DNA from: Ignavibacteria bacterium
GTDB taxonomy: Bacteria; Bacteroidota; Ignavibacteria; Tepidaquicellales; OLB5
Assembly (NCBI GenBank): GCA_030835085.1
Contig: JAUQWQ010000167.1
Span: forward strand, 1-34,074
Direction: 5' to 3'
Length of the DNA: 34,074 nucleotides
Part shown: positions 5,592 to 31,383 of the stretch, one piece after another
Position numbering within the stretch: the stretch's first letter is position 1
Layout of the letters: every line of letters begins with the position of its first letter
Position numbers and translations under genes: made by a program
The notes under the pieces: generated by a model
Told to the model about the DNA's origin: nothing
Databases searched by the model: none
The model's input: the letters and a program-made list of their open reading frames with translations, nothing else

Positions 5592-6886
5592 TTCAGTAAG
5601 ATCATTTTTTTTGTTTCGGTAAAATCTCCTGATGTTAATGTGTAAAAATACAGCCCGCTGGGATAGTTTGAAGCGTTCCATTCGGTTTGGTAAGTACCGG
5701 GGGTGAGTTGCTGGTTGATGAGGGTCGTGACTTCTCTACCGAGAGCATCGTAAATTCTTAACAAGACCCCCTCTTTGTCTCCCCCTTTCAGGGGGAGATG
5801 AAGTTCAGATATTGCAAATGTAATTTTTGTTGTTGGATTGAATGGGTTGGGATAATTTTGGTAGAGTGAATATGATTCGGGAACTTCATTGGAAATTATT
5901 TGAATTCCGATCTCACCGGTGTATTTCGAAATACCGCCATTATCACGGACAGCCCAAACGTTTGAGTTACCGGTAATCTGCGCATGCATATGTTTATAAT
6001 TTCCGGAAGGAGATGTATATTGATAACTGAAATTATCAGCATTAGCACCTGCGTATATTTTATTCCCTTTGGTGTACCAATAAGATGCAGACATACCGTG
6101 TCCGCAAGCTGCTGCAGTTATGAATCCTGAACCGGGAGTAACAACCTGCAGCCAATTTGAGCCGGAATTAGAAGACTTAAGTACATTCGTCCCGCCGGTC
6201 AGCCCGTACCCGATAGCATCAGTCAATATAAAGGAAAATACCACAGTTCTTGATTCTGTCTCGGGTAAAATTGACTGCGTATTCCAGGTTACTCCCCCGG
6301 ATGGGCTGCTGTATATTCTAGAGTTATTGGTGCCAACCCAGATCATATTATCAACCGACCACACTGAATTAATGAAACCGGTTTCATTGCCGGATTGAAA
6401 AAGCCGTAAACCGGTTGAATCCCAGTTAGTGCCAAAATTCGTGGATCTCCATATCTGCCACCTTCCGTTGAGAGGTGAGCCGATCAAAAGCAAAAAACCC
6501 TGGTTAACAAACCCATAGTATTGTACTAAATCCTGTGAAAAAACCAAAACCCAGTTCAGGCCGCCATTAGTAGATCTGTACACAAGTGAACTGCCCCCGG
6601 AATTTCTGCCTGTTATCAAAACATTCTGATTTCCTGTTTCAATAATAGAAGTAAAATTATAAATGACCGGTAAGTTACCCGATACATTTATCCAGTTTGT
6701 TCCGCTGTTGGTTGTCCTAAGCACAACGCCGTTGTCACCGCAGATCCATGCACTGTTACTGCTATTGACAGTTGCATATACGGCATTCAATGATGTTGTA
6801 ACCCCGGATTGCTGCTCTATCCATTGTGAAGAAATACCATTTGTAAAAACTATGACTACAATAAGAAAGGAAAAAGTGAGTTTCAT
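5588..6886 (-). CDS. Secreted YCF48/BNR-like propeller protein with T9SS sorting domain
   Basis: 432 residues with a signal peptide ending about residue 21 (NGISSQ). Five Asp-box-like motifs (RTTNSGTNW, RSTNGGLNW, RSTNFGTNW, SSPSGGVTW, KSSNSGSNW) indicate a propeller of the YCF48/BNR type. The T9SS type A domain starts near NYPNPFNPTTKI and ends KKMILLK. Inside this domain, between the first strand and YDALGREV, an extra stretch reads about HLPLKGGDKEGVLL. It is encoded by a palindromic repeat (see 5765-5798) that the sister genes lack. Stop and start overlap as ATGA with the next gene. It is likely the first gene of the minus-strand run, with a TATATTTG element 37 bp upstream of the start codon. 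Confidence 0.92.
   Translation of the reverse strand: MKLTFSFLIVVIVFTNGISSQWIEQQSGVTTSLNAVYATVNSSNSAWICGDNGVVLRTTNSGTNWINVSGNLPVIYNFTSIIETGNQNVLITGRNSGGSSLVYRSTNGGLNWVLVFSQDLVQYYGFVNQGFLLLIGSPLNGRWQIWRSTNFGTNWDSTGLRLFQSGNETGFINSVWSVDNMIWVGTNNSRIYSSPSGGVTWNTQSILPETESRTVVFSFILTDAIGYGLTGGTNVLKSSNSGSNWLQVVTPGSGFITAAACGHGMSASYWYTKGNKIYAGANADNFSYQYTSPSGNYKHMHAQITGNSNVWAVRDNGGISKYTGEIGIQIISNEVPESYSLYQNYPNPFNPTTKITFAISELHLPLKGGDKEGVLLRIYDALGREVTTLINQQLTPGTYQTEWNASNYPSGLYFYTLTSGDFTETKKMILLK
5765..5798. repeat. Palindromic mini-repeat inside a T9SS sorting-domain coding sequence
   Basis: CTCCCCCT (5779-5786) and AGGGGGAG (5790-5797) form an 8-bp perfect stem with a 3-nt loop, preceded by a C-rich arm (5765-5778). 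It lies in frame in the minus-strand gene and encodes about residues 363-374 (LPLKGGDKEGVL). The paralogous sorting domains at 1486-1780 and 3975-4260 have unrelated sequence at this loop, so this copy looks like an insertion. It resembles the elements at 30703-30746 and 31167-31224, which encode similar peptides (PLLKGEGGV, VLLKGDGG). Confidence 0.7.
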
Positions 6887-29492: not shown

Positions 29493-29523
29493 TGTCATGC
29501 TGAACTTGTTTCAGCATCTACCT
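29493..29523. repeat. Dispersed palindromic repeat, left-end copy
   Basis: ATGCTGAA and TTCAGCAT (29497-29517) form an 8-bp stem with loop CTTGT. The sequence matches the left end of the larger elements at 29991 and 30145. Confidence 0.7.
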
Positions 29524-29640: not shown

Positions 29641-29976
29641 ATGGCCAATAATGATTATTACGTGTATATAATGACAAATATTTCAAAGACATTATATACA
29701 GGCGTTACCAATAACATTCATTTAAGAGTTCTGCAGCATAAATATGGAGTTAATAAAGGATTCACCAGCAAATACAAAATTGATAAGCTGGTCTATTTTG
29801 AATGGACTGACTCTATTGAGGCTGCAATCAAAAGAGAAAAACAACTCAAGAACTGGCACAGAGGCTGGAAAATTAATCTAATAGAAAGCGCAAACAGAAA
29901 TTGGGATGATCTTTCTGCCGGGTGGTACGATGGAATTGATCCTTGTGAAGTATTGAAGGATTATACGGGAGAGTAA
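29641..29976 (+). CDS. GIY-YIG domain protein (UPF0213/YhbQ-like)
   Basis: 111 residues. YYVYIMTNISKTLYTGVTNN is the GIY-YIG core, with the arginine at LRVLQHK and the conserved glutamate in IEAAIKREKQLKNWHRGWKI. Such single-domain proteins are often named after UvrC but lack its other domains; structure-specific nuclease activity is known for some members, and the cellular role is mostly unknown. It stands alone, with dispersed repeats on both sides, an arrangement sometimes seen for small genes that move or are duplicated. There is no strong Shine-Dalgarno site. Confidence 0.9.
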   Translation: MANNDYYVYIMTNISKTLYTGVTNNIHLRVLQHKYGVNKGFTSKYKIDKLVYFEWTDSIEAAIKREKQLKNWHRGWKINLIESANRNWDDLSAGWYDGIDPCEVLKDYTGE

Positions 29977-30144: not shown

Positions 30145-30260
30145 TCATGTTGAACTTGTTTCAGCATCCCGGCGTTTTTCTGGTCCTGCTTCAGCGGAAT
30201 GTCTGCTTACCTTGAGATCATGGAGTAGGACAGCAGACCCTGAAACAAGTTCAGGGTGAC
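30145..30260. repeat. MITE-like element, simple copy
   Basis: About 116 bp. The left end TGTTGAACTTGTTTCAG is nearly the inverse complement of the right end CTGAAACAAGTTCAGGGTGA, so the element has terminal inverted repeats of about 18-20 bp. No coding sequence. It is in direct orientation relative to the copy at 29991. Confidence 0.75.
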
Positions 30261-30342: not shown

Positions 30343-31383
30343 ATGAACATAACAGACCAATCATTTAAAAATTCGATAACATCAAAAGCAAAAGAACTTG
30401 GCTTTTTTGCATGCGGTTTTGCGAAGTACGAAGTGCTTGAAGATGAGTCCCATAAGCTGCGCAAGTGGCTGGATGAAGGCAAGCAGGCTGATATGGCATG
30501 GATAGAACGCGGATTTGATAAACGAAAAGACATCCGGCAGATAATGCCAGAAGCAAAGAGTGTAATTTCGCTTGCTTTCAATTATTACGCTCCGTTTGAA
30601 CATGATGAAAGCAAGCCAAAGATATCACGGTATGCATGGGGTAAGGATTATCACAAAATTTTAAAGAAGAAGCTGAAGGAGTTGTGTGAGTTTATAAGCG
30701 TAACCTCACCCCCATCCCCTCTCCTAAAAGGAGAGGGGGGAGTTCTATTGAAGAGTTATGTTGATGACGGTCCCGTGATGGATAAAGTATGGGCTCAAAA
30801 AGCGGGAATTGGCTGGATGGGAAAACATTCCAACATCATTAATCCCGATTACGGCTCATGGTTTTTCCTGAGTGAAATCATCACAAATATTGATTTTGGT
30901 AACTACGATACACCAATTGAAGATATGTGCGGTAGCTGTACAATTTGCATATCCGCATGTCCAACGGGAGCTATTGAAAGCGAATATGTTGTTAATGCAA
31001 ATAAATGCATATCATATCAAACCATTGAGAACCGGGGTGAGATTCCCCTTGAAATTAACTTAGACGGCTGGATATTTGGCTGTGATGTGTGCCAGGATGT
31101 ATGTCCGTTTAACTCGCCAAAGTATAATCATGTGACTGAGGAAAAGGGCTTCTGGCCGAAGTTGATAACCTCACCCCCGTCCCACCTGACTGCTGGTGCA
31201 GTTCTCCTGAAAGGAGATGGGGGCAATAGTTACAAAAACATAGAGCTACATCTAAACGAAATAGATAAAGAGACATTATTAACTCTTACAGAAGAGCAGT
31301 TTGCTGAAACATTCGCGGACTCCCCCATTAAGCGCACAAAATATACGGGATGGAAGCGGAATCTGGAAAGGTTCAAAAAGTAA
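30343..31383 (+). CDS. queG: Epoxyqueuosine reductase
   Basis: 346 residues, cytoplasmic, the cobalamin-dependent enzyme that reduces epoxyqueuosine to queuosine in tRNA. Visible hallmarks are SYVDDGPVMDKVWAQKAGIG with GWMGKHSN, the first 4Fe-4S site CGSCTICISACPTGAI (C196, C199, C202, C206), the QueG signature NKCISYQTIENRGEIP and the second cluster site GCDVCQDVCPFN. Two in-frame insertions interrupt the normal sequence: about residues 121-135 (TSPPSPLLKGEGGV) and 275-294 (TSPPSHLTAGAVLLKGDGG). Both are encoded by palindromic DNA repeats and lie away from the catalytic motifs. The enzyme is probably still active, since all cysteines and the active-site region are intact. Confidence 0.95.
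   Translation: MNITDQSFKNSITSKAKELGFFACGFAKYEVLEDESHKLRKWLDEGKQADMAWIERGFDKRKDIRQIMPEAKSVISLAFNYYAPFEHDESKPKISRYAWGKDYHKILKKKLKELCEFISVTSPPSPLLKGEGGVLLKSYVDDGPVMDKVWAQKAGIGWMGKHSNIINPDYGSWFFLSEIITNIDFGNYDTPIEDMCGSCTICISACPTGAIESEYVVNANKCISYQTIENRGEIPLEINLDGWIFGCDVCQDVCPFNSPKYNHVTEEKGFWPKLITSPPSHLTAGAVLLKGDGGNSYKNIELHLNEIDKETLLTLTEEQFAETFADSPIKRTKYTGWKRNLERFKK
30703..30746. repeat. In-frame palindromic repeat in queG, copy 1
   Basis: ACCTCACCCCC leads into CCCCTCTCCT (30716-30725), loop AAA and AGGAGAGGGG (30729-30738), a perfect 10-bp stem, then GGAGTTCT. It encodes TSPPSPLLKGEGGVL and keeps the frame. Confidence 0.85.
31167..31224. repeat. In-frame palindromic repeat in queG, copy 2 with internal extra segment
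   Basis: It starts with ACCTCACCCCCGTCCC, nearly identical to copy 1, and ends CTCCTGAAAGGAGATGGGGG. Between the arms is an extra segment (CACCTGACTGCTGGTGCAG) absent from copy 1. It encodes TSPPSHLTAGAVLLKGDGG and keeps the frame. Confidence 0.8.

Follow-up and report, generated by a model that had tools for sequence, protein, structure and literature searches.

The gene queG of an Ignavibacteria genome carries two copies of one REP-like palindrome, both in frame and translated, and across the genus the same two loops are occupied by palindromes of different families. The queG finding is a further case of intragenic in-frame REPs, in a new lineage. The explanation that probably holds is one in which mobile palindromes landed in tolerant loops of QueG, with a palindrome-bracketed DUF559 unit as the candidate mobiliser. 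The window, that is, the whole stretch of DNA that was analysed, is a 34-kb contig (34,074 nucleotides) from a 4.05-Mb Ignavibacteria MAG (here denoted G000), whose genus includes 'Chlorobi bacterium OLB5'.

queG (30343..31383, forward strand) encodes an epoxyqueuosine reductase of 346 aa (Pfam QueG_DUF1730, E 8e-22, and Fer4_16, a double 4Fe-4S domain). The domains, the Fe-S cysteines and the catalytic Asp are all present in the window protein, and the cysteines and Asp141 are invariant in the alignment. An earlier note, made from the letters of the window, had described two palindromic repeats inserted in frame in this gene and forming stem-loops, and both repeats are present. Copy 1 (30703..30740, forward strand, residues 121-133) matches the query of its family, denoted family A, at 39/39 positions and is translated in the queG frame into the 13 residues TSPPSPLLKGEGG. 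It forms a perfect hairpin of 10 bp (30716..30738, forward strand, with arms at 30716-30725 and 30729-30738; DNA z -2.5). Copy 2 (31168..31226, forward strand, residues 276-295) also matches the family query, retains the element and is translated in the queG frame into the 20 residues TSPPSHLTAGAVLLKGDGGN. The extra internal segment that had been proposed for copy 2 was recovered as a nested stretch (31184..31203, forward strand) that adds a net 18 nt and has a 5-bp hairpin of its own, ACTGC-TGGT-GCAGT. Genome-wide, no second close copy of this nested 20-mer was found, the next best match having 3 mismatches.

An AlphaFold2 model of QueG built from 57 sequences (pLDDT 88.8, pTM 0.88) superseded a first model from 15 sequences, which was poor (pLDDT 53). 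The best PDB matches of the model are the solved QueG structures 5d0b, 5d08, 5t8y and 5d6s. In the model, insert 1 lies in the loop that joins helix 103-121 to strand 136-140; at insert 2 the pLDDT drops below 50 (residues 282-290). In B. subtilis QueG, the catalytic-loop residue to which the title of 5t8y refers is Asp134; Asp141 aligns with it and is probably its counterpart. The strand leading to Asp141 begins a few residues after site 1, which is thus near the catalytic residue in sequence, though a loop in the model. The claim that the repeats sit at non-catalytic sites with all motifs intact held for the motifs and needs this qualification for site 1. Both sites are apparently tolerated as exposed, low-constraint, permissive surface loops, and the host enzymes, QueG included, are predicted to stay active.

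BLAST detected about 39 copies of family A in G000, mostly intergenic, of a REP-like element of about 38 bp. The core pattern matched 37 times on one strand of the palindrome and 33 times on the other, whereas a reversed-pattern control gave 0 matches. Across 44 aligned copies the stem is paired in 98.6% of cells, and 11 of the 44 carry a compensatory swap of the loop-closing pair, from T-A to C-G on both sides, just two stem pairs varying on both sides among these copies. The copy number, the empty control and the kept stem pairing indicate that the repeat did not arise by chance. Many copies elsewhere in the genome are paired in inverted orientation, one start lying about 65 bp from the other, as in BIMEs and REPINs; the queG copies are singlets. 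Four of the six reading frames of the element are free of stops, and family A also lies in frame in UvrC (several copies), UvrA, RimO and homoserine dehydrogenase of G000, in at least three reading frames. The further genomic copies expected from the earlier note are thus both coding and intergenic and use several frames. A palindromic family with coding and non-coding copies and an in-frame insertion missing from orthologues are two marks of RPEs, and family A shows both.

The stem foot of the aligned family A copies is ACCTCACCC, not a GTAG tag; in none of the 44 copies does CGTC adjoin the stem, and the CCA-type tail is absent from them too. Plasmids searched with the palindrome DNA alone gave 2 weak matches. 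In G000 itself, a contig break within its palindromes divides uvrC between two loci (L015 and L031, at the ends of contigs C127 and C12). Another C-tract palindrome of the window lies in frame, as LHLPLKGGDKEGVL, in a secreted protein with a T9SS tail (5762..5803, reverse strand), and is of the same type as the palindromes flanking the DUF559 loci L273 and L278, described below.

The loops of queG are filled by palindromes in 12/12 genus genomes from which the gene was recovered, and at least six families are involved; in G004, site 2 is cut by the contig end. At site 1 we found family A in G000, G006, G012 and G002, family B in G009, families B and C together in G005 and G007, family D in G008, G003 and G004, family E in G010 and family H in G011. 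Site 2 is occupied by family A in G000, G008, G003 and G010, family C in G006, family E in G007, B-type palindromes in G005 and G012, family F in G011, and a G-type in G009; the G-type is also present, in addition to family A, in G010 and, weakly, in G002. The consensus of each of families B to H was read from the queG insert of one species, independent matches being those in other species only, and families F and H had no independent match in another species. The stretch from DYHK to YVDDGP or YVDTGP, which spans site 1, measures 24 residues (22-26) in essentially all outgroup loci, about 45 of which were parsed, versus 33 to 156 in the genus. Both segments are missing from QueG proteins outside the family, which was the check suggested in the earlier note. 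The sister species G000 and G005 have QueG proteins that are about 90% identical, and their site 1 families differ. Because both loops are palindrome-filled throughout the genus by different families and the length of site 1 is fixed outside it, the queG case is one in which two permissive surface loops have been invaded recurrently, much as RPEs and intragenic REPs invade their hosts' genes.

Every fully read insert of the genus keeps the frame and lacks stops. At site 1, the queG of G002 (L056) contains a tandem array of about five palindrome units, with repeated TSPPSPLLIGEGGNDSEIIEKAKSLN, and the encoded QueG has 462 aa. In the sister-genus genome G013, queG (L059, about 1340-1600) has a frameshift at site 1 within palindromes, which marks either a pseudogene or a sequencing error. 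The loops of UvrA and RimO, compared across species, hold family A, hold other palindromes or are empty. Hairpins nested in earlier palindromes recur in UvrA of G010, in RimO of G007 and in queG of G007 and G012, a pattern that fits palindromes attracting palindromes.

Whole genes are found between palindromes as well. In UvrC of G005, G008 and G010, the same loop contains a complete DUF559 domain (PF04480, E 1.6e-36) between family A palindromes, all in frame. LeuRS of G007 (L256, contig C3, ORF from 604) carries a D-DUF559-D unit in frame at the start of the editing domain, and a palindrome-DUF559-palindrome unit lies in frame in the BREX gene pglX on the complete plasmid pPg_02 of Pseudanabaena galeata (L302/L310). 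For each locus we looked for repeats common to its left and right flanks of 300 bp, using scores of at least 34 and at least 40. Matched flanks were present at 22/28 DUF559 loci of the genus at the lower score and at 20/28 at the higher, versus 1/40 other genes (Fisher 2e-11). Flanks of different DUF559 loci, paired as a control, matched in 12.6% and 8.3%, respectively, and RAYT loci, the positive control, did so in 21/28 cases at the score of 34. As a baseline, about 2 Mb of G009, a near-complete genome, was scanned, and a score of 40 was reached by 1.3% of the other genes (23 of 1815). Against it, the 20/28 has a p of about 3e-32, an indicative value, since loci and baseline were taken from different genomes. 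The part of G009 that was sampled has 4 DUF559 genes, of which only 2 had matched flanks.

The association extends to plasmids of Cyanobacteria, Deinococcota and Alphaproteobacteria, on which 14/20 DUF559 loci reached 40, with none in shuffles. The 9 DUF559 loci in viral contigs were mostly without matched C-tract palindromes, and no flanking repeat was found at the E. coli locus L305, so some DUF559 genes lie outside such elements. Nearly all of the repeats flanking DUF559 loci are C-tract palindromes, each locus having its own matched family, and the queG-insert families A, B, C, D and E each adjoin some DUF559 gene in the genus. Family A itself was seen to flank DUF559 genes in G005, G008 and G010 only, and none among the G000 genes examined. 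RAYT, considered as the partner of family A, was rejected on the evidence of the flanks, as no RAYT locus is bracketed by family A and 2/30 have a copy nearby. A limited literature search found no relevant earlier report of C-tract palindromes flanking DUF559 genes, and we provisionally regard the association as new. The DUF559 protein VsrA of Caulobacter, assigned to the PD-(D/E)XK superfamily, was reported to be responsible for the SOS response in methylation-deficient cells (PMC12907096); its Vsr likeness and its SOS role make nuclease activity of DUF559 plausible.

A second small nuclease gene lies just upstream of queG in the window. This single-domain GIY-YIG gene (29641..29976, forward strand; Pfam GIY-YIG, E 1.5e-14) has the palindromic repeat TCATGCTGAACTTGTTTCAGCATC upstream (29495..29518) and the matching repeat TCATGTTGAACTTGTTTCAGCATC downstream (30145..30168, with an inverted partner at 30240-30253). 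These flanks are TCATG(C/T)TGAACTTGTTTCAGCATC palindromes, of another type than those in queG. On plasmids, strong matched flanks accompany 6/8 single-domain GIY-YIG genes, mostly as CGTCATCC...GGAT palindromes of CGTC type. The GIY-YIG-flanking repeats fit the CGTC REP pattern, for example CGTC-ATCCTCGGG-CTTG-ACCCGAGGAT-CCA, and the flanked plasmid loci include those of S. meliloti and A. lipoferum, both listed as CGTC-bearing (PMC3733652). According to that paper, CGTC REPs appear to have no dedicated transposase (Di Nocera et al. 2013, PMC3733652). In an unbiased scan of G009, genes of the PDDEXK_3, 23S_rRNA_IVP and IS200 types also had repeats common to both flanks, so the matched-flank pattern may be a general one for small single-gene elements. 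The PDDEXK_3 and 23S_rRNA_IVP loci of G009 with repeat-matched flanks are L383, L368, L353, L382 and L352.

We propose that the queG segments are mobile palindromes of a REP-like, non-autonomous kind, which inserted into two loops and are translated as linkers of 13 and 20 residues. Such inserts would persist because the frame was kept at insertion, the element is open in four of its six frames and the loops are tolerant. Over time the loops would be re-invaded, emptied and overlaid by other palindromes, which would leave different palindromes at the same place among the species of the genus. Our best guess for the autonomous unit is palindrome-DUF559-palindrome, in which DUF559, a Vsr-like PD-(D/E)XK endonuclease, would cut at or copy the C-tract palindromes and so mobilise them. 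RAYT transposases are thought to act likewise on GTAG REPs. More broadly, and tentatively, small non-HUH nucleases may be the dedicated partners of the partnerless REP classes, DUF559 of the C-tract palindromes and single-domain GIY-YIG of the CGTC type; together they might constitute widespread minimal mobile elements able to sit in frame in essential genes and to seed translated palindromes such as those of queG.

Alternatively, RAYT or IS200-type HUH transposases acting in trans might move the palindromes, with the DUF559 genes between them as cargo or defence. RAYT-like genes occur in 12/13 genus genomes, G000 has IS200-type TnpA genes, and RAYT loci have matched flanks at the same rate as DUF559 loci do. 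The repeats that flank RAYT genes are a different set, however, with a C tract in 2/21; family A lies within 1.5 kb of only 2/30 RAYT loci, and the DUF559 loci have mutually matched palindromes of several families in four phyla, so we consider this unlikely. A further possibility is that DUF559 is a homing endonuclease that cuts insert-free alleles and spreads by repair copying, in which case the shared sites would result from homing and vertical descent and the solo palindromes would be decayed remnants. The occupation of one UvrC loop in three species, the conserved nature of the host genes and a weak PADLOC match of DUF559 to a homing endonuclease profile (E 5e-4) are in its favour; the presence of palindromes of different families in the same loops and the intergenic position of the majority of copies make it distinctly improbable.

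Selection for the inserts, whose peptide or mRNA hairpin would tune the folding, localisation or translation of QueG, could account for both loops being filled in every genus member examined, but family, length and sequence vary among species and the outgroups do without inserts, and we think it very unlikely. Still harder to credit is that the insert is skipped in translation, or removed from the mRNA or protein in the manner of a bypass or an intein: mRNA hairpins are bypassable in principle and the sister-genus QueG of G013 has its frameshift at site 1, yet an open frame throughout the fully read inserts would be needless if they were skipped, and no splicing (Hint) domain was found in queG or in the DUF559-bearing LeuRS. 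That the segments are an ordinary QueG loop or an assembly artefact has a negligible probability; the source is a draft MAG, but the reading is refuted by the agreement of 12 independent assemblies, by the multi-copy nature of the repeat and by the fixed length of site 1 in the outgroups. We retain mobile palindromes in tolerant loops, with DUF559 as their candidate mobiliser, as the preferred explanation.

These results extend protein-embedded palindromes to a phylum other than that of Rickettsia, and they present certain protein loops as standing targets that are repeatedly filled by different repeats. They also offer a candidate answer to the question raised in 2013 of which enzyme moves those REP classes for which there is no RAYT. 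The pairings of DUF559 with C-tract palindromes and of GIY-YIG with the CGTC type are readily testable in culturable hosts such as Deinococcus, Sinorhizobium or cyanobacteria, and would, if true, provide a function for what is a very common 'domain of unknown function'.

Among known systems, RPE-1, RPE-4 and RPE-6 of Rickettsia resemble the queG case in being translated multi-copy palindromes in frame in many unrelated genes, including those of DNA repair and tRNA modification (PMC3733652). The analogy with RPEs drawn in the earlier note stands as one of how the elements work; as to the lineage, intragenic in-frame REPs had already been described in several bacteria beyond Rickettsia, particularly in repair genes such as uvrA (Di Nocera et al. 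2013, PMC3733652). Family A belongs to a different lineage, appears to differ in sequence and, in its 44 aligned copies, lacks the CGTC tag of RPE-4 and RPE-6; moreover, several palindrome families compete here for one loop, and a nuclease gene is associated. The intragenic GTAG and CGTC REPs are alike in their inverted dimers, in same-site REPs in recB of two Xanthomonas and in the neutral loop insertion proposed for them (PMC3733652), whereas family A has neither tag, shows genus-wide turnover that includes empty sites and has a DUF559 partner. Inteins and homing endonucleases of housekeeping genes likewise place a nuclease in frame within a conserved gene; unlike them, the unit described here has no splicing domain that we could find, reads as part of the host protein and is flanked by palindromes. 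REPs and REPINs with their RAYT (TnpA-REP) share with our elements the short non-autonomous palindromes, the occurrence as singlets and inverted pairs and the flanking of a small nuclease gene, but their repeat sequences differ, and the partner in our case is a Vsr-like PD-(D/E)XK protein rather than an HUH transposase.
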